Position numbers and translations under genes: made by a program | Source: Microbacterium yannicii PS01 | Lineage (GTDB): Bacteria; Actinomycetota; Actinomycetes; Actinomycetales; Microbacteriaceae | DNA: 64,000 nt | Reading direction: 5' to 3' | Assembly (NCBI RefSeq): GCF_000304335.1 | Contig: NZ_CAJF01000020.1 | Coordinates: 1 to 64,000 of the forward strand | The notes under the pieces: generated by a model | The model's database searches: none | The model's input: the letters and a program-made list of their open reading frames with translations, nothing else | What the model was told of the DNA's origin: nothing | Shown: one piece after another, positions 5,735 to 26,795 of the stretch | Position numbering within the stretch: position 1 is the stretch's first letter | Layout: the number at the start of each line of letters is the position of its first letter

Positions 5735-5782
5735 ACAGCCTCACCATATCGGTTGGGTGAGGGCGGTGTGTACCATCCAGGC

Positions 5783-6274
5783 ATGATGAGCATTACATCC
5801 GAACATCCGGACATCAATCGACGTGTCGCGACACTGCTGTCGGAAGAGGCGGAGCTGGACTTCGCCCGCTTCAGCGTGGACGACGCTTGGTCGGTGGGCA
5901 GTCGCCTGCGCCAGACGGCAGTCGACGACGGGCACGCGGTGACGATCTCCATCATCCTCGGCACACAGCGGGTCTTCCATGCCGCGACGTCGGGAGTAGC
6001 CGCCGTCAACGACGCGTGGCTCGAGCGCAAGCTCCGGGTGGTGGAACACTACGCCGCGTCCACGCTCCGGGTGCGCTACGAGTTTCTTGAGCGTGGCGAG
6101 GACTTCGCGCGGGATTCGCTCTTGGACCGGCGTACCCACGTCGCCGCGGGCGGGGCATTTCCGCTGCGCGTGCAAGGCACGTTGGTCGGCGGAATCGGCG
6201 TCAGCGGACTGGAGATGCACAAGGACCACGACCTCGTCGTCGAGGCGCTGCGCGCCCACGCCGCGAACACGTGA
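5783..6274 (+). CDS. UPF0303 / haem-degrading (HbpS-like) domain protein
   Basis: 163 residues from ATG 5783 (tandem ATG at 5786). The protein matches the UPF0303/GlcG-HbpS-like fold, with DFARFSVDDAWSVGSRLRQ, VTISIILGTQRVFHAATSG, WLERKLRVVEHYAAST and a glycine-rich GTLVGGIGVSGLEMHKDHDLVV near the end. Family members bind small ligands and some bind haem; function here is unproven. No signal peptide or membrane segment is seen. It is a single gene, divergent from a sugar-type oxidoreductase, and another haem-associated domain (HtaA) occurs in the region at 13848. An upstream in-frame extension to 5753 looks non-coding. Confidence 0.8.
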   Translation: MMSITSEHPDINRRVATLLSEEAELDFARFSVDDAWSVGSRLRQTAVDDGHAVTISIILGTQRVFHAATSGVAAVNDAWLERKLRVVEHYAASTLRVRYEFLERGEDFARDSLLDRRTHVAAGGAFPLRVQGTLVGGIGVSGLEMHKDHDLVVEALRAHAANT

Positions 6275-6634: not shown

Positions 6635-7585
6635 ATGACCGACAGCATTCCGGTCGACGCTGACATCGTGGTGAACAAGGGCGCAGGTCTGCGCATCGGC
6701 ACCGCACCCGATTCGTGGGGAGTGTGGTTCCCCAACGATCCGAAGCAGGTCCCGTGGCAGCGGTTCCTCGACGAGGCGGCCACCGCCGGTTACTCGTGGA
6801 TCGAACTCGGCCCGTACGGCTACCTGCCCACAGACCCGCATCAGCTGGAGGACGAGCTCGGCTCACGCGGTCTGAAGCTCTCGGCCGGCACGGTCTTCAC
6901 CGGCTTTCACAAAGGTGACGACCAGTGGCAACGCGCGTGGGACCAGGCTCTCGCGGTCGCGGGTCTCGCCTCGAAGCTGGGAGCCGAACACCTTGTCGTG
7001 ATCCCGGATCTGTGGCGCAGCGACGCCACCAGTGAGGTGCTCGAGTCTCGCACACTGACCGACGAGCAGTGGACGAAGCTCGCGGCCGGGCATGATCGCC
7101 TCGGCGAGGCGCTCCTCGAGGAATTCGGCGTCAAACAGCAGTTTCACTCGCACGCGGACAGCCACGTCGGCACCACGCGCGAGGTGCTTCGCTTCCTCGA
7201 CGAGACCGACCCCCGCTACACCAATCTCTGCCTCGATACCGGCCACTTCGCGTACTACGGCGGTGACAACGTGAAGCTCGTGGAGGACCGTCCGGAGCGG
7301 ATCGGCTACCTGCACCTCAAGCAGGTAGACACGTCTCTGCTCTTCGACGTGCTGAAGAACGACGTGCCGTTCGCGGATGCCGTCAGCCAGGGCATCATGA
7401 TCGAGCCGCCCGGCGGCGTGCCCGATCTGGCCCCCATCATCGAGGCGGTCGCTGCTATCGACCACGACATCTTCGCGATCGTGGAGCAGGACATGTACGG
7501 CTGCGCCGTCGACGCACCGTTGCCCATCGCCCAGCGCACGCGTGAGCACATCTTCAGCTGCACGCACTTCGCGCGCATTCACTGA
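6635..7585 (+). CDS. Sugar phosphate isomerase/epimerase, IolE-like (inosose dehydratase family)
   Basis: 316 residues, TIM barrel. The start IGTAPDSWGVWFPNDPKQVPWQRFLDE and then YSWIELGPYGYLPTD are characteristic of 2-keto-myo-inositol dehydratase (IolE) and close relatives. Metal-ligand candidates are the Glu in YSWIELGP, His in QQFHSHADSHVG (about 169-179), Asp in NLCLDTGHFAYYGG (about 200) and Glu in AIVEQDMYGC. It is the first gene of an operon with a Gfo/Idh/MocA dehydrogenase and a second TIM-barrel protein, driven by the promoter at 6370-6398. This fits oxidation of an inositol to an inosose followed by dehydration. Lack of full iolB/C/D genes here means the rest of the pathway is elsewhere or the substrate differs. 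Confidence 0.85.
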   Translation: MTDSIPVDADIVVNKGAGLRIGTAPDSWGVWFPNDPKQVPWQRFLDEAATAGYSWIELGPYGYLPTDPHQLEDELGSRGLKLSAGTVFTGFHKGDDQWQRAWDQALAVAGLASKLGAEHLVVIPDLWRSDATSEVLESRTLTDEQWTKLAAGHDRLGEALLEEFGVKQQFHSHADSHVGTTREVLRFLDETDPRYTNLCLDTGHFAYYGGDNVKLVEDRPERIGYLHLKQVDTSLLFDVLKNDVPFADAVSQGIMIEPPGGVPDLAPIIEAVAAIDHDIFAIVEQDMYGCAVDAPLPIAQRTREHIFSCTHFARIH

Positions 7586-7623: not shown

Positions 7624-8640
7624 ATGAGCAACGACCTTCGCGTCGGTGTTGTCGGCGCCGGCCTCATGGGCGCCGACCACATCACCCGCATCACGAACCG
7701 CATCGCGGGAGCCGTCGTCTCCGCGATCGTCGAGCCCGACGCGGGCCGTGCCGCGGCGGCGGCCGAAGACGCCCCGGGCGCCCAGACCTTTGGGCGGATC
7801 GAGGCCGCGATCGAGGCGGGCGTCGTGGACGCCGTGCTGATCGCGACCCCCGGCCGGTTCCACGAGCCGGTGCTCGTGCCCGCACTTGAAGCGAAGCTCC
7901 CCATCCTCTGCGAGAAGCCGCTCACGCCGGACTCGGCGTCGTCGTGGGAGATCCTCGAGCTCGAGCAGCAGCTCGACCGCCCCCACATCCAGGTGGGATT
8001 CATGCGCCGCTTCGACGCGGAGTACCAGCAGCTGCGCGAGTTGGTCGCCTCGAAGGACGCCGGCGAGCTGATGCTGCTGCGCTGCGCGCACCGCAACCCT
8101 TCGGTGCCCGACACGTACACGCAGGAGATGCTCATCAACGACTCCGTCGTGCATGAGTTCGACGTCGTGCCGTGGTTGGCGGGTTCGCCGGTCGCTTCGG
8201 TCGAGGTGAAGTTCCCGCGCCGCAACTCGCTGTCGCCGGCGCAGCTGCAGGAGCCGATCCTCGTGCTCATGAAGCTTGAGAACGGCGTGCTCGTCGACGT
8301 CGAGATGAACGTAAGCGTGCAGTTCGGGTACCAGGTCGCCACCGAGGCCGTGTTCGAGAGTGGCCTCGCCCGTATCGGCCAGCCGTCGGGCCTGCAGACC
8401 TGGGGCGACGGTCGGTTCTCGATCGCGGACCACACCAGCTTCGTCACGCGATTCGCCCGCGCCTACGATGAGCAGATCCAGCGCTGGGTGAACGCAGTCC
8501 GCTCGGGCGCCCTCGTCGACGGCCCCAACTCGTGGGACGGCTATCGTGTCGCGCTGGCGTGCGAGGCCGGCGTCAAGGCGCTGAACCAGGGCGGCGTCGT
8601 CCCGGTCGAAGCCCCCGCGCGCCCCGACTTCTACGCCTGA
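7624..8640 (+). CDS. Inositol 2-dehydrogenase-like Gfo/Idh/MocA oxidoreductase
   Basis: 338 residues. Rossmann motif VGVVGAGLMGADHITRI, CEKPLTPD near residue 98 with the catalytic Lys, and the block HRNPSVPDTYTQEMLINDSVVHEFDVVPWL (about 158-187, containing the DxxxH pair) are typical of actinobacterial inositol 2-dehydrogenases (IolG/IdhA). The predicted reaction is NAD-dependent oxidation of myo-inositol or a relative to the 2-keto form, feeding the IolE-like enzyme 38 bases upstream. The next gene follows after 26 bases. Substrate range inside the family is broad (inositols, pinitol, glucose), so the inositol name is by similarity only. Confidence 0.85.
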   Translation: MSNDLRVGVVGAGLMGADHITRITNRIAGAVVSAIVEPDAGRAAAAAEDAPGAQTFGRIEAAIEAGVVDAVLIATPGRFHEPVLVPALEAKLPILCEKPLTPDSASSWEILELEQQLDRPHIQVGFMRRFDAEYQQLRELVASKDAGELMLLRCAHRNPSVPDTYTQEMLINDSVVHEFDVVPWLAGSPVASVEVKFPRRNSLSPAQLQEPILVLMKLENGVLVDVEMNVSVQFGYQVATEAVFESGLARIGQPSGLQTWGDGRFSIADHTSFVTRFARAYDEQIQRWVNAVRSGALVDGPNSWDGYRVALACEAGVKALNQGGVVPVEAPARPDFYA

Positions 8641-8666
8641 CCCTTCGCCACGTCCCAGGAGACACT

Positions 8667-9533
8667 ATGGTCCGCATCGCGCTCGACCCCACCCCGTACC
8701 ACCACGACTTCTCGCTGTTCCAGTTCCCCGAGGTCGCCGCTCGCCTCGGTTACGAGCATCTCCAGCTGACGCCGCACCTCGACTTCTCGCCGTTTTTCCG
8801 GTATCCGAAGGCCGACGATGAGGTCGTTGCGCGCTTCAAGAAAGCCGCCGCCGATGCCGGGGTCGGCATCCCGGCGATCCTGCCGGTGCAGCGGATCTCG
8901 TCGCCCGACGAGCCTCAGCGGGTTGCCGCCGTCCGCAACTTCCGGCGCGTCATCGAGCTCGCGGTAGAGCTCGAGATCCCCATGATCAACACGGAGTTCT
9001 CGGGCCGTCCCGAGCTTTCCGAGGATTCCGAGGACGCGCTCTACCGTTCGATGGCGGAGCTGCTGCCGATCATCGAGGCGGAGGGGCTGCGCATCAACAT
9101 CGACCCGCACCCCGATGACTTCGTCGAGGACGGGCTCGAAGCCTGGCGCGTGCTGCGCGGCCTCAACTCGAAGGCAGTCGGATTCGTCTACGTCGCGTCG
9201 CACACGTTCCACTACGGCGACCGCGCCACAACGCTCATCCCCGAGCTCGGCGACCGACTCGGGGCGGTCTACACCGCCGACACCTTCGACCACCACCGGT
9301 CTCACGGGCTGCGCTACATCTCGAACCCGCCGGGCAACGCGGCACGCGTGCACCAGCACCTCAGGATCGGCGATGGCGACGTGGACTGGGCCGAGCTGTT
9401 CACCACGCTACGCGAGACGGGCTACCTCGACCGTCCCGACGCGCTCATCGTCTCGAACGTCTTCGCCGAGGACGAGGTCGCCGACGAGGTGTCGCGCTTC
9501 CAGCTGCAGAAGCTGCGCGAGCTCATCGGCTGA
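8667..9533 (+). CDS. TIM-barrel sugar phosphate isomerase/epimerase
   Basis: 288 residues from ATG 8667, with CAGGAGAC before it; the frame continues upstream to 8532 but overlaps the previous gene. It begins MVRIALDPTPYHHDFSLFQFPEVAARLGYEHLQL and contains INTEFSGRPE, RINIDPHPDDFVEDG, FVYVASHTFHYG and AVYTADTFDHHRSHG, giving the Glu, Asp and His ligands of this metal-dependent family. It resembles the IolH-type proteins found in inositol clusters. It ends the operon; the next 50 bases lead into a decayed dehydrogenase gene. Exact reaction unknown. Confidence 0.85.
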   Translation: MVRIALDPTPYHHDFSLFQFPEVAARLGYEHLQLTPHLDFSPFFRYPKADDEVVARFKKAAADAGVGIPAILPVQRISSPDEPQRVAAVRNFRRVIELAVELEIPMINTEFSGRPELSEDSEDALYRSMAELLPIIEAEGLRINIDPHPDDFVEDGLEAWRVLRGLNSKAVGFVYVASHTFHYGDRATTLIPELGDRLGAVYTADTFDHHRSHGLRYISNPPGNAARVHQHLRIGDGDVDWAELFTTLRETGYLDRPDALIVSNVFAEDEVADEVSRFQLQKLRELIG

Positions 9534-9587: not shown

Positions 9588-9915
9588 ATGGTCGCGTGGG
9601 CACGCTATCCATACGAGGGCACCGTCGTCCTGGTGACCGGTCGATGGCGCTCGATCTTGGCCGCGACGGGGTGCGCGTCAACGCGATCGCACCGGCCTTC
9701 ACCGCCACGCGGCAGACGCAGGAGCGCCTCGAGACCCGGCGTTCCGCGCTGCGCTCCTCGACCGCATCGCCCTCGACCGACCGGCCGACCCGAACGACAT
9801 CGCTCGCGCGGCGCTGTTCCTCGCGAGTCCGGATGCCGGCTACATCACCGGTGTCGTGCTGCCCGTCGACGGCGGCACGACAGCGTCCAGCGGCACGCCT
9901 CGCCCACTCTCCTGA
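9588..9915 (+). pseudogene. Short-chain dehydrogenase (SDR) remnant with internal deletion and frameshift
   Basis: The 5' part reads [18 protein letters not shown], the beginning of an SDR Rossmann fold. It then jumps directly to [19 protein letters not shown], which in a whole SDR lies about 150 residues later. After ERLE the frame shifts by one, and the other frame continues as [15 protein letters not shown], then [15 protein letters not shown] and the classical SDR end [13 protein letters not shown], stopping at 9913-9915. The cofactor loop, catalytic Ser and Tyr-Lys are missing, so it cannot be active. It directly follows the inositol-type operon, suggesting that operon once had a fourth enzyme. 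Confidence 0.85.
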
Positions 9916-9943: not shown

Positions 9944-10687
9944 CTAGGAGAGAAGCTCGGACATGTCGATCTGGCCGACCGTGAGGCTGCGCCGGTAGGT
10001 GAAGCGCACGCGGCTGGCCACCCACGCTGTGCGGGCGAGCTCGACGAGCTCGCCCGTCTCGCGGAGGCGGCTCGCCGTCACGATCTCGAGGAGCGGCACG
10101 TCGTGGTACGCGCCGAGCTGCTGCGCCTGCCGTGCGTGCGCGAAGATCACGCTCACGCTGCTGGACGCCGTCACGATGGCGCCGCGCGGCATCTCCGAGG
10201 CCACTGATCCCATGCCCGCCGAAACCCACGACTCCGTGATGGCGATCGCGATGCCGTTCACCTCCTGCAGGTGCAGGCCGAAGCTCATTCCGATGGGACG
10301 GTCGTTCTCGACCAGCCGGCGCAGGTCCTCGGGCACGGTGGTGTGCCGCTCGTACTCCAGCAGTCGCGACCGCGCGACATTGCCGCTCGCGAGCAGCTGC
10401 TCGCGCCACGGACGCAGCAGGTCGACCTCGCAGCGGATGAGGTCCTCGCGGGAGTTCACGAACGTGCCCGAGCCGCGGCGGCTGTGGACGTAGCCGTCGG
10501 ATCCGAGAGCCTCGATGGCGCGGCGCACCGTGACTCGGCTGACTCCGTAACGAGCGACCAGCTCAGCCTCGGAGGGGATGCGGGCGCCGGGCTCGAACTC
10601 GCCGATGTCGATGCGGTGACGAATGTCGCGATGCACCTGTCCCCACGCGGTCAGCGGTGAGTCGTGTTCCACGGCGAACGGCTGCAT
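9944..10687 (-). CDS. GntR family regulator with UTRA effector domain
   Basis: 247 residues. The N-terminal winged helix shows IDIGEFEPGARIPSEAELVARYGVSRVTVRRAIEAL and the wing GYVHSRRGSGTFV (about 66-78). The rest is a UTRA ligand-binding domain of the HutC subfamily. It is divergent from the P450 fusion gene, with inverted repeats in between, so it is the obvious candidate regulator of that operon. It also stands directly after the inositol-type operon and could sense a sugar or polyol phosphate; the ligand cannot be inferred. Confidence 0.9.
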   Translation of the reverse strand: MQPFAVEHDSPLTAWGQVHRDIRHRIDIGEFEPGARIPSEAELVARYGVSRVTVRRAIEALGSDGYVHSRRGSGTFVNSREDLIRCEVDLLRPWREQLLASGNVARSRLLEYERHTTVPEDLRRLVENDRPIGMSFGLHLQEVNGIAIAITESWVSAGMGSVASEMPRGAIVTASSSVSVIFAHARQAQQLGAYHDVPLLEIVTASRLRETGELVELARTAWVASRVRFTYRRSLTVGQIDMSELLS

Positions 10688-10896: not shown

Positions 10897-13851
10897 GTGG
10901 ACAACACACGGTCGTCGCAGGCAGCGCAGCCGCGGATCGCCATCGTCGGGAGCGGCCCGTCCGGCTGTTACATGGCGCAGTTCCTGCGCAGGACGTGGGC
11001 CGACTCGGATATCGCGATCTACGACCGGCTCGACACCCCGTTCGGTCTCATCCGCTACGGCGTCGCGCCCGACCACCTCGGCACCAAGGGCATCGCGAAG
11101 CAGTTCGACAGGCTCTTCGAGCAGGACGGCGTCCGCTTCCTGGGAGGCGTCGAGGTCGGGACCGACATCTCGATCGAAGCGCTCCGGGCGGAGTACGACG
11201 CCGTGGTCCTCGCAACGGGGCTCTGGGCCGATCGCACCATCGATGGCTTCCACGACGCGAACGGGGCCGCCACCCGGGGCCGCGTCTACGGCTCAGGCGA
11301 AGTCACCCGCATGATCAACGCGCACCCGGGCCGTCGCTCCGACGTCATCCGGATCGGCCGGCGTACCGTCATCGTCGGCAACGGCAACGTTGCGGCGGAT
11401 CTCGTCCGCCTCTTCCTCAGCAGCCCCGAGCGGCTGCGCGAGGTCGGCGTGCCCGACGACGCGATCAAGGCCGTCGGCACGGTCGAGCGGATCGATGTCG
11501 TCGGCCGTTCCGGGGCGGACCAGGCGAAGTTCGACGTCGCGATGGTCCGCGAGCTGGGTCGCCTCGCCGATGTACGCTTCACCACCGACGCCGATCGCTC
11601 GACCGCCGCCGACTCGCCGCCGGCCGCTGCGGTCCTCGAGATCGTCGACGCCTCACCGGCTGAGGCACGCCGCGAGGTGCACTTCAGCTTCGGCTGGACA
11701 CCCGATCACCTTGAAGGGGACGCCGACGTCGAGCTCGCGGTCTTCCGCGACTCCGCAGGCACGGGGAAGCTCCTCGCGATCGAGGCCGACTCCGTGTGCA
11801 CCGCCGTCGGTTTCCGTGAGATCCCGACCGACGTGCTCCTGCGCAGCACGCTCGAGTCCGACACGACCGACATCGACGCGGGTGTGCTCGGCGAGAACCT
11901 GTACTGCGTCGGATGGGTCCGTCGCGGCCCTGTCGGGACGATCCCCGCCAATCGTGCGGATGCGCGCGCGGTCGCCGCTCGCATCATCGCCGACCTCGAC
12001 CCCGAGGCCGCCGCCGGGGCATCGCCGGTCGAGGAGGAGGATGCCGCCGGCCCGGGCGAGATCGTGGTGCTCTACGGCACCGAGTCGGGAAACGCCGAGA
12101 CCATCGCCGACGTCCTCGTCGAGGAGTTCTCAGACGACCTGAAGATCCGTGCGATCGACATGACCGACGCGACCGCGGCGGACCTCCGGCCCGGGAACCT
12201 GACGTTGGTCATCTGCTCGACGCACGGCGAGGGCGCGATGCCCTCGAGCGCCAAGCCCTTCGCCGCACTCCTCGACGCGGAGCAGCCCGACCTCACTGAC
12301 ATCCGCTACGCGATGTTCGGTCTCGGCGACAGCTCGTACGAGTTCTACAGCCGCGGGAGTGAGCACATCGACGCGCGCCTGGCCGCGCTGGGCGCCACGC
12401 GGGTGGCCGACTACGGGCGCCACGACGCCGTCGACGGCACACTTCCCAACGACCGCGTGCTCGAGTGGGCGCGAGTGGTGGTCGCCGACGAGGTCCTGGC
12501 ATCGGACGTCGTGGGCAGGGCGGCTGCGCAGGCGACGACGGATGCCAGCGCCAACGCCCTGCACGAGCCCTCGGTCACGGCCTCCGATGTCGACACCACG
12601 AGGATCGCGGGGATCACCACCGCGGTCCAGGCCGACAGCAGTCTGGTCCCGAGGGACCTGACCCTGCACTACGACCCATTCTCGTACGCCGACTACGACT
12701 ACCCTTACGACCTCTTCAAGCGTCTGCGCGACGAAGCCCCGGTGTACTACAACGAGGAGCGCGGCGTCTACTTCGTCTCCCGCTACGCGGACGTCCGTGC
12801 GTGCCTCGCCGACACCAAGCGCTTCTCCAGCGCCCGCGGTAACGACATCGACGGTACGCATGATTCCTTCGGCGAGGGCTTCCTCGTCACGATGGACGCG
12901 CCGCGGCACACCGCGCTGCGCGCCGCGATCCGCCGCACGTTCTCCGTGCGCGAGATCCTCGCCAAGGAGGACGGCATGCGCGAGTACATCCGCCACCTCC
13001 TCGCTGCATTCTGGGACAAGGGTGGCGGGGACTTCACCGCTGAGGTCGGCTTCCCGATCGGCGTCGGGATGGCGGTGATGCTGCTCGGCCGCCCGATGAG
13101 CGACGTGCCCGATTTCGTCGATCACATCGAGCGCGAGCTCGTGCGCGTCGTGGGCGCGCCGGGTGTTCCCGACGACGCGGTCGACGCGGTCGTCGAGACG
13201 GAGGCGATGATTGCCGACCGTTTCGCGGCCCGCAAAGCCGAGATCGAGGCGGGCGTCAACACCTCCGCGAGCGATGCGATGACCCAGATCACGCTCGCCG
13301 TGCACGCCGGCAAGGTCAGCTCGACCGAGCAGGTCGGTCTCGCCCACCTCGTGCTGGCCGCCGCCAGCGACGCGCCGGCGTCGTTCATGGGCCAGATCAT
13401 CATGATCCTCGACCGATTCCCGACGCTGCAGCCGTTTCTGCGCGAGAACCCCGCGCTCATCCCGGCATTCATCGAAGAGTGCTTGCGGTATGACACCCCC
13501 GGCCAAAACGTGTCACGCCAGACGACGGAGGATGTCGAGGTCGCCGGCACGGTGATCCCGGCGAACTCCCGCGTTACGTTCCTGCAGGGATCGGCCAACC
13601 GCGACGAACGGGTCTACGACAACCCCGACGTGTTCGACCTCGCGCGGGAGATCACCCCGGCCAACCGGATCATGTCTTTCGGCGAGGGACCGCACGCCTG
13701 CATGGGGGCACCGTTCCTCCGCCTCTGTGCGCGGGTGCTCGTGGAGGAGCTCGTGCAGGGGCAGCCCGTGCGCATCGTTGGGCTGCCCGAGCGGTTCTCG
13801 AAGCAGCTCATCCGCGGTTTCGCGAAGCTCCCGGTGAGGTTCGCCGCATGA
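10897..13851 (+). CDS. FprA-type reductase - flavodoxin - cytochrome P450 fusion
   Basis: About 984 residues from GTG 10897 (AAGGGAG ten bases before); GTG 10888, ATG 10837 and TTG 10774 are alternatives. Domain 1 (about 10-370) is an adrenodoxin-reductase/FprA NADPH:ferredoxin reductase: FAD motif GSGPSG (18-23), PFGLIRYGVAPDHLGTKG, NADP site GNGNVA (161-166), and VGWVRRGPVGTIPANR. Domain 2 (about 387-535) is a flavodoxin with the FMN loop YGTESGNAET. Domain 3 (about 590-984) is a P450: ExxR at E861-R864 and haem motif FGEGPHACMG with ligand Cys935. The I-helix segment SDAPAS keeps an Asp (825) but has Ala where the oxygen-activating Thr normally sits. No signal peptide. One chain thus holds a full NADPH-FAD-FMN-haem route. 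Domain order resembles XplB plus XplA (reductase; flavodoxin-P450) and is the reverse of P450 BM3. Substrate unknown. Confidence 0.93.
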   Translation: MDNTRSSQAAQPRIAIVGSGPSGCYMAQFLRRTWADSDIAIYDRLDTPFGLIRYGVAPDHLGTKGIAKQFDRLFEQDGVRFLGGVEVGTDISIEALRAEYDAVVLATGLWADRTIDGFHDANGAATRGRVYGSGEVTRMINAHPGRRSDVIRIGRRTVIVGNGNVAADLVRLFLSSPERLREVGVPDDAIKAVGTVERIDVVGRSGADQAKFDVAMVRELGRLADVRFTTDADRSTAADSPPAAAVLEIVDASPAEARREVHFSFGWTPDHLEGDADVELAVFRDSAGTGKLLAIEADSVCTAVGFREIPTDVLLRSTLESDTTDIDAGVLGENLYCVGWVRRGPVGTIPANRADARAVAARIIADLDPEAAAGASPVEEEDAAGPGEIVVLYGTESGNAETIADVLVEEFSDDLKIRAIDMTDATAADLRPGNLTLVICSTHGEGAMPSSAKPFAALLDAEQPDLTDIRYAMFGLGDSSYEFYSRGSEHIDARLAALGATRVADYGRHDAVDGTLPNDRVLEWARVVVADEVLASDVVGRAAAQATTDASANALHEPSVTASDVDTTRIAGITTAVQADSSLVPRDLTLHYDPFSYADYDYPYDLFKRLRDEAPVYYNEERGVYFVSRYADVRACLADTKRFSSARGNDIDGTHDSFGEGFLVTMDAPRHTALRAAIRRTFSVREILAKEDGMREYIRHLLAAFWDKGGGDFTAEVGFPIGVGMAVMLLGRPMSDVPDFVDHIERELVRVVGAPGVPDDAVDAVVETEAMIADRFAARKAEIEAGVNTSASDAMTQITLAVHAGKVSSTEQVGLAHLVLAAASDAPASFMGQIIMILDRFPTLQPFLRENPALIPAFIEECLRYDTPGQNVSRQTTEDVEVAGTVIPANSRVTFLQGSANRDERVYDNPDVFDLAREITPANRIMSFGEGPHACMGAPFLRLCARVLVEELVQGQPVRIVGLPERFSKQLIRGFAKLPVRFAA

Positions 13852-14288
13852 GCGCCGAAGTCGCAGCTGAGCTGGAGTGGGGCGTGCGCTCCAGCTTCCT
13901 GAGCTACGTCGAAGGCCTGGCCGACGGGCGGGTCGAGACCCTCGACGGTGCGGTCCGCGACGACCGGGTGTTCCGGTTCTCCGGCGTCCGTGCGGATGAG
14001 GTCGTCTACCGCTTCAGCGGAGCTGTACGTTTCTCCGGATATTCCGGGGTGCTCGATGTCACGCTGCGAGACCTCGAGGTGAGGCGGAACGGCGGGCTCG
14101 GAGTCCTTTCCGCCGACGTCGCGGGCTGGCGCCTCACGCTCGCCGAGCTGTCGGATTTCGAGCCCACCGACGGCGACGCGCTGCGTGCCAGCACGATCGC
14201 CCTGACCGACGACGGCGCCGCCACCCTCGGCGGGGTCTATCCCGCGGGAACCCCTGCGGCGCCCTTGACCATCCGACTTGCGCACTGA
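13848..14288 (+). CDS. Cytosolic stand-alone HtaA-domain protein
   Basis: 146 residues, ATG overlapping the P450 fusion stop (ATGA). LEWGVRSSFLSYVEGLADGRVETLDGA followed by FRFSGV, YRFSGAVRFSGYSGVLDVTLRDLEV matches the HtaA haem-binding domain of corynebacterial haem-uptake proteins (start pattern W-x-V-x-x-S-F-x-x-Y). In those proteins the tyrosine after SF is a haem ligand and it is present here; the FTGH histidine position is Tyr (FSGYSG). Unlike the usual HtaA proteins there is no signal peptide, sortase site or membrane anchor, and only one domain. Tight coupling to a haem enzyme suggests a haem-related or P450 partner role, but that is inference. Confidence 0.75.
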   Translation: MSAEVAAELEWGVRSSFLSYVEGLADGRVETLDGAVRDDRVFRFSGVRADEVVYRFSGAVRFSGYSGVLDVTLRDLEVRRNGGLGVLSADVAGWRLTLAELSDFEPTDGDALRASTIALTDDGAATLGGVYPAGTPAAPLTIRLAH

Positions 14289-14312: not shown

Positions 14313-15287
14313 ATGCAATACCGCGACTTCGGACGCACCGGATGGAAGGTCAGCGAGATCTCGTTCGGCGCCTGGCAGCTGGGCGGCCAATGGGGCGCCG
14401 TCGATGACGAGGCCTCGGTGGATGCCCTGCTCACCGCCTATGAGCACGGCATCAACTTCGTCGACACCGCGGAGTTCTACGGCTTCGGGCACAGCGAAGA
14501 GGTCATCGGCGAGTCGCTGCGCCGCTGGGACGGCGACAAGATCTACGTCGCGACAAAGACCCGCCCGATCCAGTGGCCCGACCCGAACCATGACGAGCCG
14601 CAGATGCGCGGCCGCTACCCCGCGTGGTACCTGCGCGAGAACGTCGAGGCGTCGCTCAAGCGCCTTGGCGTCGAGCGCCTCGACCTGCTCCAGCTGCACT
14701 GCTGGCTGCGCTCGGGCATCAACGAGCTGGACTGGATGGAAACCCTGAACGAGCTGCGCGTCGAGGGCAAGATCGACAAGATCGGCGTCTCGATCCGCGA
14801 TTACCGCCCCGACGAGGGCGTGGAGCTCGCCGAGCTCGGCCTGGTGGACTCGATCCAGGTGATCTTCAACCTGTTCGAGCAGCGCCCGGTCGAGAAGCTC
14901 TTCCCCGCCGTAGCGAAGACCGACACCGCGATCATCGACCGCGTCGCCTTCGACTCGGGGTCGCTCTCGGGCCTGTGGACGAAGGACACCTACGACAGCT
15001 GGGAGGAGGGCTCGCAGCAGAAGGAGATGTTCCGCGACGAGCGCTTCCAGGAGACGCTGGACCGCGTCGAGGCGCTCAAGAAAGTCATCGCGCCGTTCTA
15101 CCCGACGCTGGCCGAGGCCGCGATCAAGTACGTGCTGGCCTCGCGCGAGGTGTCGACGGTGATCGCCGGCATGAGCAGCGATCGCAACATCACTCGCAAC
15201 GTGGGCTACTCCAACGGCGAGCCGTTTCCCGAGGAGCTGCGCGCGCAGCTCGCGGAGCACGGCTGGATCAGGAACTACTACAAGTGA
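14313..15287 (+). CDS. Aldo/keto reductase
   Basis: 324 residues, (beta/alpha)8 NADPH-dependent oxidoreductase. The tetrad is visible: Asp and Tyr in NFVDTAEFYGFGHSEEVIG (about 49-67), Lys in YVATKTRPIQ (about 80) and His in DLLQLHCW (about 128). The pyridine-nucleotide binding C-terminal region includes VIAGMSSDRNITRNVG. It lies 24 bases after the HtaA-domain gene with an AGAAAGGCACA leader and overlaps the creatininase-family gene (GTGA). In this context it may reduce or oxidise the carbonyl product released by the P450 or a sugar derived from it. Confidence 0.9.
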   Translation: MQYRDFGRTGWKVSEISFGAWQLGGQWGAVDDEASVDALLTAYEHGINFVDTAEFYGFGHSEEVIGESLRRWDGDKIYVATKTRPIQWPDPNHDEPQMRGRYPAWYLRENVEASLKRLGVERLDLLQLHCWLRSGINELDWMETLNELRVEGKIDKIGVSIRDYRPDEGVELAELGLVDSIQVIFNLFEQRPVEKLFPAVAKTDTAIIDRVAFDSGSLSGLWTKDTYDSWEEGSQQKEMFRDERFQETLDRVEALKKVIAPFYPTLAEAAIKYVLASREVSTVIAGMSSDRNITRNVGYSNGEPFPEELRAQLAEHGWIRNYYK

Positions 15288-16024
15288 GCGTCGTCGATCA
15301 GGTGCGTGCCGAACTCCTCAGTCCCGAGGAACTTGACGCACGTCTCGCCGAGGCATCCGTTGTCTACATTCCGCTCGGCACGCTGGAGTTCCACGGCCCG
15401 CATCTTCCGGTCGGCCTGGATGCGCTCACCGCCCACACCGTCTGCATCGCGGCCGCCGAGCGTGGCGGAGGCATCGTCCTCCCGCCGGTGTACCAAGGCT
15501 TCGGTGGCGGACACGGGGAATACCCGTGGACGATCATGATGGCCGACGGCGCAGGCATCGCGACGCACCTGCGCGCCAGCCTCGGCAGGCTCCGGGACTT
15601 CGGAGTCGCCACCGCGGTGGTATTCAGCGGGCACTTCGCACCCGAGCAGCTCGACCTGATCGACGCGCTCCAGTCGGACTGGAACCGCTCCGAGGACGGC
15701 ATCCGCGTCGTGGCGACGGCGGTCAACCGATGCCCCACGGCGCCGCTGCCCCCCGACCATGCGGGGGAGTTCGAGACGACGTTGCTTGCGGGCAGCGCTC
15801 CGGAGCTGATCCATCTGGACAGGCTGCCCGACGTGGAAGCGCAACCCGCCAATGATCCGAACGACGACCCGTACGGCCTGCACCGACATGAACGGACCCA
15901 CCCGCTGTGGGGCGTCTTCGGACCCGATCCGCGAGCGGCCGACCTGGGCGCGGGACCGGCCTTGCTTGCGCATTTCGGCGAGTGGTTGGCCGGCGAGGCG
16001 GGAGTGGCGCTCCCCGAGGCGTGA
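15284..16024 (+). CDS. Creatininase family metal-dependent amidohydrolase
   Basis: 246 residues from GTG 15284, overlapping the aldo/keto reductase stop as GTGA. The metal site is clear: GTLEFHGPHLPVGLDALTA gives Glu, His and Asp ligands (about 30-45), with a His in FSGHFAPEQ (about 117) and a Glu in GEFETTLL. Family members hydrolyse creatinine, mycofactocin or riboflavin precursors, and cyclic amides or lactones. It is the last gene of the P450 unit (P450 fusion, HtaA, AKR, this gene), so hydrolysis of a cyclic product is possible. No mycofactocin genes are nearby, arguing against an MftE role. Confidence 0.85.
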   Translation: MSVVDQVRAELLSPEELDARLAEASVVYIPLGTLEFHGPHLPVGLDALTAHTVCIAAAERGGGIVLPPVYQGFGGGHGEYPWTIMMADGAGIATHLRASLGRLRDFGVATAVVFSGHFAPEQLDLIDALQSDWNRSEDGIRVVATAVNRCPTAPLPPDHAGEFETTLLAGSAPELIHLDRLPDVEAQPANDPNDDPYGLHRHERTHPLWGVFGPDPRAADLGAGPALLAHFGEWLAGEAGVALPEA

Positions 16025-16136
16025 GGTGCGGGCGGATCGGGGTCGGCCGCGGGCCGAGGTCTGCGCTCGGCCCGCGGACCGAGTTCTGTGAATTCGTGTG
16101 GCCGCGAAGCCTCGGATTGCCACAGCCGATGATAGA

Positions 16137-16156
16137 TTGACCGGACATTGGGTCAA
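16137..16156. promoter_or_regulatory. Inverted repeat TTGACC-N8-GGTCAA before the epimerase gene
   Basis: Perfect 6-bp arms (16137-16142 and 16151-16156), ending ten bases before the ATG at 16167 and overlapping the AAAGGAG ribosome-binding site. It fits an operator or a structure masking the start; I cannot say which. Confidence 0.4.
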
Positions 16157-16166
16157 AGGAGTCTCT

Positions 16167-17192
16167 ATGGACGTCGGTCTGTACATGGTCGCGTTACACG
16201 ATCGCCCTCTCGAGCGAGCGCTCGATGACATGGTGCGGTGGGGGATCACTCGTGCTGAGGTCGCCGCCGGCGGCTTCGTCCCGACGCCGCATTGCCCGAG
16301 GGGCGAGCTTCTCGCGGATGCCGGCCGCCGAGCGGCATGGCTCGAGGAGTTCGGGGCACGCGGAATCTTCCTGTCGGCCCTGAACGTGAATGGCAACCCG
16401 CTCCATCCTGACCGCGCCGTGGCCGACGCGCACTCGAGAGACATCGAAGAAGCGATCGAGCTGGCGCCGCTGGTGGGCGTCGATCGCATCATCGTCATGC
16501 CCGGCGCACCGGGCTCTGGACCGGGCGCGGTTCGGACCGGGTGGTACGTCGCGCCTTGGGAGACCGGCCTTCTCGATGCCAGGGACTACCAGTGGGACGT
16601 CGCTGTCGCGTTCTGGAGGCGGATGGCCGAGCGTGCCGCGGAGCGAGGTGTCCGCATCTGTGTCGAGGCTCACCCGCATACCGTCGTCTACAACGTCGAC
16701 ACCATGCTCCGGCTGCTCGAGCGCGTCGGCTCGGCCGCCCTCGGCGTGAATCTGGACCCCAGCCACTTCTTCTGGCAGGGAATCGACCCCCTTCGCGCGA
16801 TCGGGCGGCTGCGTGGCCGCATCTGGGCCGCGGCGGCAAAGGACACACTGATCGACCCCGAGGCAGTCGCCCTGCACGGCGTGCTCGACGATCGATTCTC
16901 TCGCGCGGCCGTCGACCCGTATCCACTCGGCGGCGGGTACACCGTCACCCTGCCTCCCGAGGACGCACCCTGGCGCTTCGCGGCCGTGGGGCGCGGACAC
17001 GACGCGAGCTGGTGGCGAAGCTTCCTCGGCGCGCTGGCGGACGCGGGGTACGGCGACGCCATCTCCATCGAGCACGAGGACGTCCAGATGAAGGTCGATG
17101 AGGCCATTCCCTACGCGGTGCGCACGCTGCACGCCGCGGGCGCAGGCGCGGATCGAGTTGACCGTGCGCCATCCGATATCAATATGTACTGA
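16167..17192 (+). CDS. Sugar phosphate isomerase/epimerase (paralogue of 1300-2313)
   Basis: 341 residues from ATG 16167 with AAAGGAG. It begins MDVGLYMVALHDRPLERAL and shares NGNPLHP, DYQWD, VEAHPHTVVYN, LDPSHFFWQ, AAAKDTLIDPE and SIEHEDVQ with the protein at 1300-2313, so the two are clear paralogues at opposite ends of the sugar region. Metal ligands are expected at the Glu in CVEAHP, the Asp and His in LDPSHFFWQ and the Glu in SIEHED. It is monocistronic, ends at a strong hairpin, and has an inverted repeat over its translation start. Substrate unknown. Confidence 0.85.
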   Translation: MDVGLYMVALHDRPLERALDDMVRWGITRAEVAAGGFVPTPHCPRGELLADAGRRAAWLEEFGARGIFLSALNVNGNPLHPDRAVADAHSRDIEEAIELAPLVGVDRIIVMPGAPGSGPGAVRTGWYVAPWETGLLDARDYQWDVAVAFWRRMAERAAERGVRICVEAHPHTVVYNVDTMLRLLERVGSAALGVNLDPSHFFWQGIDPLRAIGRLRGRIWAAAAKDTLIDPEAVALHGVLDDRFSRAAVDPYPLGGGYTVTLPPEDAPWRFAAVGRGHDASWWRSFLGALADAGYGDAISIEHEDVQMKVDEAIPYAVRTLHAAGAGADRVDRAPSDINMY

Positions 17193-17348: not shown

Positions 17349-18788
17349 TCAGGCGCCGAGCCGCTCGCGACGCGGGACGGTGCGGATGGCCTGGGTGCGG
17401 AAGTCGTCCTCGAGCTTCTCGAGCGAGCGTCCCTTCGTCTCCGGGATGGCGCGCCACACGAAGAAGAGCGACACGGCGTTGATGGCCGCGAAAACCAGGA
17501 AGGTCCAGGTCGACCCGATCCCTTCGACGATCTGAGGGAACACGAACGAGATGAACGCGTTGACAGTCCACAGCACGAAAACGGCGAGGCCCATGGCGAG
17601 GCCGCGGATGGCCAGAGGGAAGATCTCGCTCAGCATGAGCCAGACGCCCGTGCCGATGAAGGCCTGGACGAAGGCGACGAACAGCATCATTCCTGCGAGG
17701 ATGAGGTAGCTCGTGGCGTCGGACTGTGGAAGTGTGAACAGGAACGCCAGCAGCAGCTGAGAGCCGACGACGCCACCGAATCCGATCATCAGCATGACGC
17801 GGCGAGGGACGAACCCGAGCAGCCAGATGCCGACGATCGTCATGACCACGCTCGTCACGCCGACGCCGATGGTGGCGATCAGGGCAGCCTGGTCGCCGAG
17901 GCCCGACTGGGTGAGGATGCTGGGAGCGTAGTAGTTCACCGTGTTGATGCCGGTCGCCTGCTGGATCGAGGCCAGGCCGAAGCCGATGTACAGGAGCCGG
18001 CGCATCCATCGGTTGTCGCGAAGCGCGTGCCAGGCATGCCTGCGACTGTCGCCCTCCGCCTTGGCGGTCGCCACAATGTCGGCGACCTCCACCTCGACCT
18101 GCTCCCGTGAGCGGCTGAGGGTGAGTACCTGGCGTGCGTCTTCGACGCGGCCCCTGGCACCGAACCAACGCGGCGACTCCGGAAGCAGGAACATTCCGAC
18201 GAGCAGCACGACGGCGGGAATCGCGGCGACTCCGAGCATGATGCGCCAGACGTGCGTGTCCTCGATGGTCACCGCCAGGAGTGCGTTGATCGCGAACGCA
18301 AGCATCTGGCCCGTAACGATCATGAGCTCGTTGATCGTCACCATACGACCGCGTTTCTCGGCCGGCGCCATCTCGGCGAGGTACAGCGGGCACGCGACCG
18401 CGGCGGCGCCGACGCCGAAGCCCAGCAGGATGCGGGCAGCCACCATGAGCTCGACGTTGGGGGCCAGGGCGCAGCTGAGAGCACCGACAAGGAAGATCAC
18501 GGCGCATACGAGGAGGCTGTTCTTTCGGCCGAGCCAGTCGGCGATGCGGCCTCCCAGCAACGCGCCGAAAGCGGCGCCTGGGAACAGCAGGGAGCTGACA
18601 ACCCACGCCTCCTGTGTGGTGGTCATCGCGAGGTCATCGCGCATGTAGAGAAGGGCACCGGAGATCACTCCGGTGTCGTAGCCGAAGAGGAGCCCTCCGA
18701 GCGTGGAGATCACGGTCAATCTGACCAAAAAGCCCTTGCGGGCGGTCCCGCCAAGAGAGGCGGTGGAGGAACTGCTGGTATGCGACAC
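17349..18788 (-). CDS. MFS sugar/polyol transporter, IolT-like
   Basis: 479 residues from GTG 18788 with AAAGGAG upstream. Twelve membrane spans of the sugar porter family are visible, with all landmarks: GGLLFGYDTGVISGAL in TM1, GGRIADWLGRKNSLL in loop 2-3, PESPRWF after TM6, QQATGINTVNYYAPSIL in TM7 and a closing PETKGRSLEKLED. This profile matches myo-inositol/proton symporters such as IolT. The promoter region shares a 19-bp element (16 of 19 identical) with the inositol-type operon at 6358, which supports co-regulation and a polyol substrate. It is divergent from the tautomerase/transaldolase unit. Confidence 0.9.
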   Translation of the reverse strand: MSHTSSSSTASLGGTARKGFLVRLTVISTLGGLLFGYDTGVISGALLYMRDDLAMTTTQEAWVVSSLLFPGAAFGALLGGRIADWLGRKNSLLVCAVIFLVGALSCALAPNVELMVAARILLGFGVGAAAVACPLYLAEMAPAEKRGRMVTINELMIVTGQMLAFAINALLAVTIEDTHVWRIMLGVAAIPAVVLLVGMFLLPESPRWFGARGRVEDARQVLTLSRSREQVEVEVADIVATAKAEGDSRRHAWHALRDNRWMRRLLYIGFGLASIQQATGINTVNYYAPSILTQSGLGDQAALIATIGVGVTSVVMTIVGIWLLGFVPRRVMLMIGFGGVVGSQLLLAFLFTLPQSDATSYLILAGMMLFVAFVQAFIGTGVWLMLSEIFPLAIRGLAMGLAVFVLWTVNAFISFVFPQIVEGIGSTWTFLVFAAINAVSLFFVWRAIPETKGRSLEKLEDDFRTQAIRTVPRRERLGA

Positions 18789-19381: not shown

Positions 19382-20464
19382 ATGATTATCGTGCCGGATG
19401 CCCCGGCCCGCCCGTTCGCGCAGGCCGCAGAGCAATACCCGACCGTGCTGTGGAACGACTCGGCCGACCCCGATGAGCTGCGCCGCTCGATCGCGCTCGG
19501 TGCGGTGGGCGCCACGTGCAACCCGGTGATCGCGCTCACCGCGATCCGCAACCACCCTGACGTATGGACACCGCGCCTGCGCGGCATCGCCGACGAGCAC
19601 CCGACCTGGGGAGAGTCCGAGATCGGATGGCAGGCAGTGAGGGAGCTGTCGATCGAGGCCGCGCGTCTGCTCGAGCCCGCTTTCCTCGCGAGCGGCGGCC
19701 GTGACGGCCGACTCTCCATTCAGACCGACCCCCGCTTGCACCGAAACGTCGACGCGCTCGTCGCTCAGGCCGTTGAGTTCTCGCAGCTCTCGGAGAACAT
19801 GATCGTGAAGATCCCCGCGACCGCCGAAGGCATCGCGGCCATGGAGGAGGCCGCATTCCGCGGTGTGAGCATCAACGCGACACTGAGCTTCACGGTGTCG
19901 CAGGCCGTAGCCGTCGGTGAGGCGCTCGAACGCGCTCTGAACCGCCGCAGGGATGCCGGTCTCCCGGAGAAGGAGTTCGGGCATGTGGTCACGATCATGG
20001 GCGGCCGCCTCGACGACTGGCTCAAGATGTGGACCTCGAAGAATCGCATCCTCACGACCCCCGGCGCATTGGACTGGGCCGGTGTCGCGGCGCTGAAGAA
20101 AGCGCACGCCGTATTCGTAGAGCGGGGCTATCGCAGTCGCATCCTGTCGGCGGCGTTCCGGAATCATCTGCAGTGGTCTGAGCTCGTCGGCGGCGATCTG
20201 GTCGTATCACCGCCGTTCGACTGGCAGCACCGGATCGACGCAAATGACATCCCCGCCGAGGACCGCATCGGTCAGCCCGTCGCCCCCCTGATCCTCGATG
20301 AGCTCGTCTCGCTCAGCGAGTTTCGTCGCGCATACTTCGCTGACGGCATGCGCCCCGACGAGTTCGCCGACTTCGGAGCCGCGAGGAACACGCTGCGCCA
20401 GTTCCTCGACGCTGACGCACAGCTCGACGCCCTGGTCCGCGACATCCTCGTCCCCGCCGCCTGA
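19382..20464 (+). CDS. Transaldolase family protein
   Basis: 360 residues. It begins with a loop around VLWNDSADPDELRRSIALGAVGATCNPVI, the TNP-type substrate motif, and the Schiff-base Lys sits in NMIVKIPATAEG (about residue 142). SINATLSFTVSQAVA and the SxRxxF-like region are in place. Family members transfer or cleave C3 units of keto sugars (transaldolase, F6P aldolase). It is longer than the 220-residue aldolase form. It forms an operon with the tautomerase and faces the polyol transporter, so it may cleave a keto-sugar phosphate at the end of this pathway. Confidence 0.85.
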   Translation: MIIVPDAPARPFAQAAEQYPTVLWNDSADPDELRRSIALGAVGATCNPVIALTAIRNHPDVWTPRLRGIADEHPTWGESEIGWQAVRELSIEAARLLEPAFLASGGRDGRLSIQTDPRLHRNVDALVAQAVEFSQLSENMIVKIPATAEGIAAMEEAAFRGVSINATLSFTVSQAVAVGEALERALNRRRDAGLPEKEFGHVVTIMGGRLDDWLKMWTSKNRILTTPGALDWAGVAALKKAHAVFVERGYRSRILSAAFRNHLQWSELVGGDLVVSPPFDWQHRIDANDIPAEDRIGQPVAPLILDELVSLSEFRRAYFADGMRPDEFADFGAARNTLRQFLDADAQLDALVRDILVPAA

Positions 20465-20559: not shown

Positions 20560-21837
20560 ATGGCAGGCTGGCGCATCCGCGATTATCACGCAGACGACGT
20601 GGACGGGATCCTTCGACTGTGGGAGCAGGTAACGGCAGAGGGGTCCGAACCGGTCTACAGTCTGTCCGAGGTGCTCGCTTCCTGCGCGAAGGATCACGCC
20701 GTGGTTGCGGTCCTAGGAGAGCAGATCGTCGGCGCCGCAATCGGCCGGGCGGCGCACGCCCAGGGCTGGGTCGTGTTCCTCGCTACCGCTTCCCACGTTC
20801 GAGGCATCGGCATCGGATCTTCCCTCCTCGCCGCGCTCGAGGCACGAATGGCCCCACAAGGCATTTCGAAGCTGTCCGCGCTCATGCCGGCCGCTGAGAC
20901 CCGGATGGGAGCGTTCCTGCACCAGGGGTTCGAGCTGAAGCAGGATCTCCACTATTTCGAACGGCACATCCCCGTGCAGCGCGAGGAGCTCAAGCGTCTC
21001 GCCCAGCTCGGCGGCCGGGTGATGCCGCGCGGACTGTGGGAGGCGGTCGGCGGGATGAACGCCGAGAAGGAGCTTCTCGAGCGGCGCGTCGTACTGCCTC
21101 TCGCGCAATCAGAGCTCGCAGAGCGGTTCGGCGTCGTTCCGCCGCGAGCCATCGTGCTCTTCGGTCCGCCCGGAACCGGCAAGACCACGTTCGCCAAAGC
21201 GATCGCGTCTCGACTCGAGTGGTCGTTCGTCGAAGTGTTCCCCTCCCGTCTCGCGTCGCATCCAGGCGGTCTCGCGGGCGCGCTCCGGGCGACGTTTGCG
21301 ACGATCGCTGAGCTCGAGCACGCCGTCGTCTTCATCGACGAGGTGGAAGAGATCGCCTCGCACAGGCAGGGAGAGCCGCCGTCGCCGACCCAGGGCGTCA
21401 CGAACGAGCTGCTCAAGATCATCCCGGCCTTCCGAGAGCAGCCGGGTCGGCTGCTGATCTGCGCCACCAATTTCATCAGAGCACTGGATGCCGCGTTCCT
21501 TCGCCACGGCCGCTTCGACTACGTCATCCCGATCGGCCTGCCCGACCAGCAGGCGCGCGACGCGATCTGGCGTCGGTATGTCCCGGAGGCCGCTGTGGGC
21601 GTGGACGTGACGGAGCTGGTCGCGATGACCGAGGGTTTCACGCCGGCCGACATCGAATTCGCCGCGCGCAAGGCCTCGCAGTCCGCCCTCGAGAATGCGG
21701 TCGATTCCGGCGCCGGTGAGCCCGAGGGGCCGTTCATGCACGACTACACGGACGCGATCGCCGCCACGCGTGCCACGGTGTCGGCTCAGGTCGCGGCCGA
21801 CTTCCTCGACGACATCGAGACGGTCGGACGACTCTAG
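20560..21837 (+). CDS. GNAT acetyltransferase - AAA+ ATPase fusion
   Basis: 425 residues. Residues about 1-140 are a GNAT fold: WRIRDYHADDVDGILRLWEQV at the start and the acetyl-CoA loop region VVFLATASHVRGIGIGSSLLAALEARM. Residues about 165-425 are a classical AAA module: Walker A GPPGTGKT (202-209), Walker B VVFIDE (256-261), the arginine-finger region LDAAFLRHGRFD and the GFTPADIEFAARKA sensor-2 helix. It resembles FtsH/Cdc48-type ATPases without a protease domain. It stands alone after the transaldolase operon. A plausible role is ATP-driven remodelling of proteins coupled to acetylation, but the target is unknown. Both domains look intact. Confidence 0.9.
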   Translation: MAGWRIRDYHADDVDGILRLWEQVTAEGSEPVYSLSEVLASCAKDHAVVAVLGEQIVGAAIGRAAHAQGWVVFLATASHVRGIGIGSSLLAALEARMAPQGISKLSALMPAAETRMGAFLHQGFELKQDLHYFERHIPVQREELKRLAQLGGRVMPRGLWEAVGGMNAEKELLERRVVLPLAQSELAERFGVVPPRAIVLFGPPGTGKTTFAKAIASRLEWSFVEVFPSRLASHPGGLAGALRATFATIAELEHAVVFIDEVEEIASHRQGEPPSPTQGVTNELLKIIPAFREQPGRLLICATNFIRALDAAFLRHGRFDYVIPIGLPDQQARDAIWRRYVPEAAVGVDVTELVAMTEGFTPADIEFAARKASQSALENAVDSGAGEPEGPFMHDYTDAIAATRATVSAQVAADFLDDIETVGRL

Positions 21838-26787: not shown

Positions 26788-26795
26788 GAGGGGTC

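Follow-up and report, generated by a model that had tools for sequence, protein, structure and literature searches.

A reductase, a flavodoxin and a P450 in one chain

The stretch of DNA analysed here, referred to as the window, comprises positions 1 to 64,000 of contig NZ_CAJF01000020.1 from the 3.95 Mb genome of Microbacterium yannicii PS01. At positions 10897-13851 of its plus strand lies a single open reading frame (ORF) of 984 codons plus the stop, without an internal stop, which joins a flavin adenine dinucleotide (FAD) reductase, a flavin mononucleotide (FMN) flavodoxin and a cytochrome P450. This three-module architecture, read from the sequence, is certain. The parts of the gene are as follows.

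10897..12027, plus strand: domain 1 (residues 1-377), FAD-NADPH reductase of the FprA/adrenodoxin-reductase type (Pfam and phmmer)
12061..12486, plus strand: domain 2 (residues 389-530), FMN flavodoxin (Pfam Flavodoxin_1)
12487..12621, plus strand: linker leading into a likely fusion scar where the P450 begins (N-terminus likeness; low model confidence)
12622..13851, plus strand: domain 3 (residues 576-984), cytochrome P450 (Pfam p450, phmmer and motifs)

All three Pfam domains score above their cut-offs, namely Pyr_redox_2 (residues 13-170, 35.9 bits, cut-off 26.1), Flavodoxin_1 (residues 391-524, 90.2 bits, cut-off 25) and p450 (residues 854-954, 71.2 bits, cut-off 22.8). In phmmer comparisons, residues 14-369 matched FprA (1lqt, 1.2e-40), residues 7-230 matched adrenodoxin reductase (1cjc, 6.7e-35), and residues 582-983 matched many solved P450s, the top one at 3.2e-44. 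The motifs of the cofactor sites are intact: GSGPSG (residue 18) and GNGNVAADL (161) in the FAD domain, YGTESGNAET (393) in the flavodoxin, and EECLR (the ExxR motif, 860) and FGEGPHACMG (928, with the haem-ligand Cys935) in the P450. The Cys loop and ExxR place the third domain in the cytochrome P450 superfamily, and C360, E286 and R289 are invariant in the P450 alignment. An earlier note on this DNA had described three intact cofactor modules in one chain, and these results bear it out.

The gene starts with GTG, and AAGGGAG lies 10 nucleotides upstream; scans for promoters, terminators and inverted repeats between the divergent GntR gene and the fusion found nothing. A structure model of the fusion (34 rows) reached a mean predicted local distance difference test score (pLDDT) of 71.9 and a predicted template modelling score (pTM) of 0.44, with the P450 partly too poor for pocket analysis, and pLDDT stayed below 50 across residues 538-610, as in a disordered linker. 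An assembly artefact was considered and is unlikely, because a second fused orthologue, 91% identical over the whole chain, exists in Gryllotalpicola ginsengisoli DSM 22003.

Unfused relatives and the P450 lineage

Relatives were collected by scanning genome contigs. After duplicates were dropped (L028, equal to L019; L021, equal to L030; L034, equal to L026), 12 distinct loci were retained, including the window and the near-identical Subtercola loci L022 and L031, which were counted separately. Genes in some of these stretches were called by a simple composition script, which misplaced some starts and frames. In all 12 loci the orthologous FAD, flavodoxin and P450 parts are grouped, as separate genes in ten and fused only in the window and in Gryllotalpicola. 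The separate orthologues are 48-69% (FAD) and 49-70% (flavodoxin) identical to the domains of the fusion. The free genes of Subtercola, Arthrobacter and Paeniglutamicibacter follow the order FAD-flavodoxin-P450, as in the fusion; the P450 gene lies on the opposite strand in L023, L024, L025 and L026. The flavodoxin stop overlaps the ATG of the P450 gene in the six loci inspected, where the FAD-flavodoxin gap is -4 to 80 bases, and L030 has overlaps of 4 bases at both junctions. The linker residues ITTAVQADSS, where the fused P450 begins, resemble the N-termini of free P450s (MSITTAVHAPD type). The tree joins the two fused P450s as sisters (100/100), which fits a single origin of the fusion. 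Most simply, the fusion would be the merged form of a conserved operon, its domain order being the old gene order after stop loss. The reversed domain order that the earlier note had pointed out is no special design; it copies the order of an operon whose genes are still separate in most relatives found.

The whole chain was matched at E 1e-120 in one of 198 genomes of the genus sample, the window's own, with no second copy, and in 9 of 398 genomes of the family sample. When the P450 domain was searched against the class-level sample (E 1e-90), the window's own P450 was the sole match (1/394). P450 relatives on plasmids reach at most 33% identity among the 30 of 1226 records listed, and the lineage of the cluster is 24-33% identical to each of 13 other P450s compared. 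Rhodococcus jostii NBRC 16295 (L033, 11805-13511) carries related FAD (49%) and flavodoxin (55%) genes near a P450 of 24% identity, with another reductase-like gene between; this locus was placed outside the 12, and a redox pair of this type may serve other oxygenases.

The same three modules occur in XplA/XplB, a class VI system composed of a flavodoxin-P450 fusion and a separate reductase. One reading would accordingly make the window's chain a reductive enzyme of the XplA kind (CYP177 kin) for nitramines or other xenobiotics. The redox partners speak for it, since the FAD domain is 42% identical to XplB and the flavodoxins are 37% identical in the comparison with Gordonia KTR9, and the Thr of the I-helix is lost in both enzymes. 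The P450 domain speaks against it. Its identity to XplA of Gordonia KTR9 is 28% in the alignment and 29.1% by BLASTP, and P450s within one CYP family share over about 40%. A tree of 25 P450s grouped the 12 orthologues of the cluster in one clade with 100/100 support and placed XplA, a relative from Rhodococcus R138 and a Klebsiella plasmid P450 in a separate one, also at 100/100; some of the outgroups sit on long branches, whose relative order was given no weight. Asp825 stands where XplA has Met, and inositol genes were found in the stretch read at 7 of 11 loci. Identity and clade rule out membership in CYP177, and the Asp-Ala pair differs from that of XplA as well. The P450 is therefore distinct from CYP177A, as the earlier note had suggested, and the outcome that would have refuted that note, a P450 nested within CYP177A and highly identical to XplA, did not occur. 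The XplA-like reading as a whole is extremely improbable.

The I-helix carries Asp825-Ala826-Pro827 in 12/12 orthologues; residues 825-826 are Met-Ala in the aligned XplA. Aligned by phmmer, Asp825-Ala826 lies opposite E-T of 8vxi (CYP125 type) and opposite I-T of CYP113A1 (2jjn). Another register, with Ala-Pro against Glu-Thr, was rejected because these alignments put Asp825-Ala826 on the pair. With Asp825-Ala826 aligned on the acid-Thr pair, the acid is kept and only Thr is lost. The register given in the earlier note was therefore correct, but its statement that the pair as a whole is replaced was not. XplA is described as being without the acid-Thr motif in an excerpt of the literature on it (PMC8081977).

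Two plasmid loci of the XplA clade were also observed. Adjacent separate genes for the FAD reductase, flavodoxin and P450 lie on a conjugative IncF plasmid of Klebsiella pneumoniae (NZ_CP063864.1; L037, 7986-10955), whose P450 falls beside XplA at 100/100 support on long branches; among the 30 records listed, four more from Klebsiella/Enterobacter contain similar stretches. On a plasmid of Rhodococcus erythropolis R138 (L086, 2959-5952), an XplB/XplA-like pair, with the reductase followed by a 1659-base flavodoxin-P450 gene, adjoins genes for an APC permease, a Gfo/Idh protein and a cyclase. A fused XplB-XplA has reportedly been found in a Microbacterium, which a literature search did not confirm; if this is right, the bare domain order is already known.

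Inositol genes and conserved partners

The genes around the fusion are listed below.

6635..7585, plus strand: IolE-like inosose dehydratase (132.9 bits, below the cut-off of 290)
7624..8640, plus strand: IolG-like inositol/D-chiro-inositol dehydrogenase (NF052679, 283.5 bits, below the cut-off of 540)
8661..9533, plus strand: AP_endonuc_2 TIM-barrel protein (Pfam; 84-86% identical to its Subtercola counterpart, which follows iolG)
9944..10687, minus strand: divergent GntR regulator (Pfam GntR; homologue in 10 of the 12 loci)
13848..14288, plus strand: HtaA-domain protein of 146 amino acids (Pfam HtaA, 86.9 bits, cut-off 24)
14313..15287, plus strand: aldo/keto reductase (AKR), 64-90% identical across the module loci
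15290..16024, plus strand: creatininase-family hydrolase (Pfam Creatininase, 103.7 bits, cut-off 31.3; start uncertain, 15290-15299)
16122..17192, plus strand: second AP_endonuc_2 TIM-barrel protein (Pfam, on a longer reading from 16098; IolE matched weakly at 25.4 bits)
17349..18788, minus strand: sugar-porter transporter of the major facilitator superfamily (69% identical to its counterpart in the Subtercola iol region)
19382..20464, plus strand: transaldolase-like gene (71-73% identical to one between the P450 module and iolC in Subtercola)

The IolE-like gene, 3.3 kb upstream of the fusion, is the sole IolE match of its genome at E 1e-20, and the IolG-like gene ends 2.3 kb upstream. Both were assigned because their close relatives in Subtercola stand in an operon with iolC, iolA, iolB and iolD genes that pass their cut-offs. 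Compared with two Subtercola genomes (S. lobariae, G538, and G585), IolE is 76-82% and IolG 81-82% identical. In these genomes the P450 module is followed by iolC (374-380 bits, cut-off 300), an aldolase gene with no NCBIfam match, iolA, iolB (239-240, cut-off 205), iolD (834-837, cut-off 715), iolE and iolG. The iolA of the first genome passes as methylmalonate-semialdehyde dehydrogenase (667 against 448.5), and that of the second (L039) is 95% identical to it by tblastn. The module of S. lobariae also includes a binding protein nearest to the rhizopine family (164 bits, below the cut-off of 420), followed by two genes read as permease and ATPase of an ATP-binding cassette (ABC) transporter.

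The link to inositol catabolism, which the earlier note had drawn from one neighbourhood, now rests on several genera. The iolC gene is single-copy and above the cut-off in 9/9 module genomes. Where it shares a contig with the P450 gene (six genomes), the distances are 7.5, 7.8, 8.7, 9.9 and 29.5 kb and 1.39 Mb, so that iolC is within 10 kb in four of the six. Linkage to iolC recurs in four genera, namely Subtercola, Paeniglutamicibacter and the genera coded g46 and g14. As for 13 other P450s of the module genomes, five are on the iolC contig and none of the five is within 35 kb. An iolC, iolE or iolG gene was found in the stretch read at seven of 11 loci (window, L022, L024, L025, L030, L031 and L032), the L026 stretch being too short for this count. 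A biosynthetic P450 of secondary metabolism, placed beside inositol genes by chance, would be the reading suggested by the nearest solved P450s, which include CYP125-type, CYP113A1 and CYP130 chains, and by the rarity of the gene in the genus (the window alone of 198 genomes). The recurrence of the iolC linkage in four genera argues against it, as do the neighbours, which among the part of the genes annotated are mostly carbohydrate-type enzymes, transporters and regulators; this reading is regarded as decidedly improbable.

Three genes behind the fusion, encoding the HtaA-domain protein, the AKR and the creatininase-family hydrolase, are partners that were overlooked in the earlier note. The HtaA gene, whose start overlaps the P450 stop (ATGA), is found in 8 of 11 testable loci, directly after the P450 gene in each; no match was obtained in L023, L024 and L025. 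The Pfam score and a conserved Tyr assign the protein to the HtaA family: Tyr20 is present in 8/8 sequences, and the second His, that of the FxGH motif, in 7/8, with Tyr in the window. Its profile matches solved HtaA domains (top 1.3e-16), and its structure model has a mean pLDDT of 91.9. HtaA domains are cell-surface haem-transport domains in which the conserved Tyr is a haem ligand. The protein in the window (13848-14288) differs from these in having one copy and, by eye, no signal peptide. That it supplies haem to the P450 would be a guess.

The AKR and the hydrolase each occur in 11 of the 12 loci, the exception being L026, where the contig ends behind the P450 gene. The hydrolase of L023 (10313-11022, genome G478) was seen to match in two pieces in different frames. 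Nearest to the AKR among solved structures are 3n2t, GSP69 and IolS. In the hydrolase, E34, H36, D45, H116 and E163 are invariant in 10 aligned sequences (an alignment that leaves out L023 and L026) and are candidate metal residues by comparison with creatininase. The protein is, by its profile, a member of the Pfam creatininase family that falls below all three equivalog cut-offs. In the family sample of 398 genomes, the P450 orthologue was found in 9, an AKR orthologue of at least 65% identity in 9, and both in 8; the AKR count leaves aside G355, whose AKR is 41% identical. The hydrolase was matched in 11 genomes at E 1e-40, and the P450 is present in 8 of those. Fisher tests of the P450 with the AKR and with the hydrolase gave 6e-15 and 1e-13, which are indicative only, as the genomes are non-independent. 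Among the remaining genomes, G586 has its P450 on a contig of 4.8 kb and no AKR partner was found in it, G365 has no P450, its AKR and hydrolase lying 768 bases from where a contig begins, and in G298 and G517 the hydrolase occurs with neither AKR nor P450.

These partners bear on a further reading, in which the substrate is another inositol-linked compound or sugar (an O-methyl sugar, an inosamine, an inositol glycoside or ether) and the AKR and hydrolase process the oxidised product, for example by opening a lactone, amide or diketone. The AKR and hydrolase are linked to the module about as tightly as the P450, and simple demethylation has no need of them; the hydrolase has matches to creatininase and MftE and a weak one to IolN, a diketo-inositol hydrolase. 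It was also reported that a P450 O-demethylates 6-O-methyl-galactose, according to an excerpt of that study (PMC10033563). On the other side stand the adjoining pathway genes, which are those of inositol, with iolC in four genera and iolA, iolB and iolD above their cut-offs in Subtercola. Such a substrate is considered possible, though doubtful.

Several other features of the window were observed. Remnants of a short-chain dehydrogenase/reductase gene lie at 9588-9909 in three frames; they match an intact gene located after the TIM barrel in Subtercola (L039) at 56-83% identity, with no match for residues 19-153, and the gene has apparently decayed. An HbpS-like gene of the haem-degrading family (5753-6274) lies upstream of the inositol genes. 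A GNAT acetyltransferase domain and an AAA ATPase are found within one ORF at 20560-21837, and a tandem pair of luciferase-like flavin monooxygenases at 25615-27956.

Putative function and known systems

The AKR-hydrolase pair is also found beside a different oxygenase. Fuscovulum ytuae is the sole plasmid record with an AKR above 60% identity (64%), and a hydrolase (47-50%) follows directly. A tblastn search of its 22 kb stretch at E 1e-3 gave no match to the FAD, flavodoxin, P450, HtaA or GntR proteins. The stretch encodes a fatty-acid-hydroxylase-type oxygenase (PF04116, 62.4 bits), a MocE-family ferredoxin (152.1 bits, above its cut-off) and an IolG-like dehydrogenase (268.7 bits, cut-off 540), along with a TIM-barrel protein and an ABC transporter whose binding protein is rhizopine-like (147 bits, cut-off 420). 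Counterparts of this binding protein in four P450 loci show 41-43% identity to it in three cases and 28% in the other. Eight rhizobial loci with relatives of this oxygenase (58-61% identity) were picked from the best 20 of 117 records. A MocE-like ferredoxin gene adjoins the oxygenase in 8/8, and a homologue of glutathione-dependent formaldehyde dehydrogenase lies within 5 kb in three (one partial), that of Ensifer canadensis scoring 583.8 bits (cut-off 543.95). The mocDEF genes remove the O-methyl group of rhizopine (3-O-methyl-scyllo-inosamine). An excerpt of the source (PMC10107442) reports that mocDEF takes part in the breakdown of rhizopine and that rhizopine induces the mocD promoter. 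By analogy, the comparison suggests that the P450 and the Fuscovulum-type oxygenase share one job, the oxidative O-demethylation of an inositol ether.

Based on the domains, cofactor motifs, fusion history, partners and inositol linkage found in the sequence, we infer the electron order, the reaction and the substrate as follows. The fusion is proposed to be a self-sufficient O-demethylase of methyl-inositols, a reading that appears somewhat probable; O-demethylation, put forward in the earlier note, stays the likeliest function by virtue of the linkage to inositol genes. As a soluble monooxygenase, the enzyme would accept electrons from NADPH at the FAD of its FprA-like domain and pass them one by one to the FMN of the flavodoxin, which would move on the flexible tether (residues 538-610), and then to the haem. 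The haem would activate O2, and the P450 would hydroxylate the methyl ether of its substrate, most likely an O-methylated inositol such as pinitol, ononitol, bornesitol, quebrachitol or a near relative. The hydroxylated ether would collapse to inositol and a one-carbon fragment (formaldehyde), and the freed inositol would enter the neighbouring IolG/IolE pathway. P450eryF has an acid-Ala pair and uses a hydroxyl of its substrate instead of Thr. The fusion likewise keeps the acid (Asp825) and has Ala826 at the Thr position; by analogy, a polyol substrate may provide the hydroxyl that takes over proton delivery.

Several observations weigh against O-demethylation of methyl-inositols. IolE and IolG of the window fall under their equivalog cut-offs, but the IolE cut-off is passed in 0/9 related genomes as well. 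The iolC gene is 29.5 kb from the P450 in G204 and 1.39 Mb in G478 (L023), and the two are on different contigs in the window's genome and in Gryllotalpicola (as also in G586). In four of the 11 loci (L019, L020, L023 and L029) the stretch read holds no iolC, iolE or close iolG, that of L019 having only a 24% Gfo relative, and loci from one genus are non-independent. The roles of the AKR and hydrolase are left unexplained, as simple demethylation requires neither, and the hydrolase lies below the NCBIfam cut-offs for creatininase (68.6/235 bits), MftE (51.3/172) and IolN (30.8/245). Mycothiol-dependent formaldehyde dehydrogenase was found beside the module in none of the 9 module genomes; one of them has it above the cut-off, distant from the module. 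No formaldehyde dehydrogenase match was found in 5/8 rhizobial loci. The exchange of the oxygenase rests on a single AKR-hydrolase locus outside actinobacteria, that of Fuscovulum, and the removal of the methyl group by mocDEF is background that the text cited above does not state.

A formaldehyde-free variant can be envisaged, in which the P450, or in Fuscovulum the other oxygenase, would hydroxylate the methyl ether of an inositol, the AKR would oxidise the hemiacetal to a formyl ester and the hydrolase would free formate. This route would explain why the AKR and hydrolase were kept together while the oxygenase was exchanged, and also why no mycothiol-dependent formaldehyde dehydrogenase lies near the module; it is improbable.

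Pinitol and other methyl-inositols are cyclitols that abound in plants. If the proposed O-demethylation is true, a bacterial P450 from a divergent lineage would provide the entry step for their catabolism. Judged by titles and the first part of abstracts, the literature matches listed, mostly from outside subscription journals, included no bacterial P450 in pinitol or methyl-inositol catabolism, and no system combining HtaA or creatininase with a P450 and inositol. A natural reductase-flavodoxin-P450 chain with surviving unfused sisters makes the benefit of fusion directly testable, and the apparent swap of the P450 for another oxygenase beside the same AKR-hydrolase pair offers a testable case of one chemistry performed by unrelated oxygenases.

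Among catabolic systems, rhizopine catabolism by mocDEF and mocB/A/C resembles the module in the rhizopine-nearest binding protein and the Gfo/MocA dehydrogenases, and the AKR-hydrolase pair of Fuscovulum lies beside a MocE-family ferredoxin and a fatty-acid-hydroxylase-type oxygenase. It differs in that the oxygenase of the module is a P450 and its binding protein is below the family cut-off. In marine bacteria, a P450 that O-demethylates 6-O-methyl-D-galactose likewise removes a methyl ether from a carbohydrate and feeds catabolism, according to an excerpt of the report (PMC10033563); it uses a separate ferredoxin and reductase. In phmmer comparisons the fused P450 matched 5ofq at 2.5e-31, against 3.2e-44 for the top P450; we take 5ofq to be the structure of that galactose demethylase.

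Among P450 architectures, BM3 has its P450 at the N-terminus, followed by cytochrome P450 reductase. The fusion shares with BM3 the single chain, which would likewise be self-sufficient, but its N-terminal module is a reductase of the FprA/adrenodoxin-reductase type, so that both domain order and reductase family set it apart from class VIII (BM3 type). An excerpt of a paper listing ten P450 classes (PMC11173547) gives class VII as P450 followed by FMN, NADH and [2Fe-2S] domains, also a single chain with the P450 first and another reductase. The same list describes class III as separate reductase, flavodoxin and P450, the type of the unfused relatives in 10 of the 12 loci, whereas the window and Gryllotalpicola hold all three in one chain. 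Class VI is described there as a flavodoxin-P450 fusion; the window's chain has this fusion, and its additional reductase domain goes beyond the class definition. From XplA/XplB, a system of that class with the same modules, it differs in its P450 lineage, its in-chain reductase and its inositol setting. The single reductase-flavodoxin-P450 chain is absent from the ten classes listed in that excerpt (PMC11173547).

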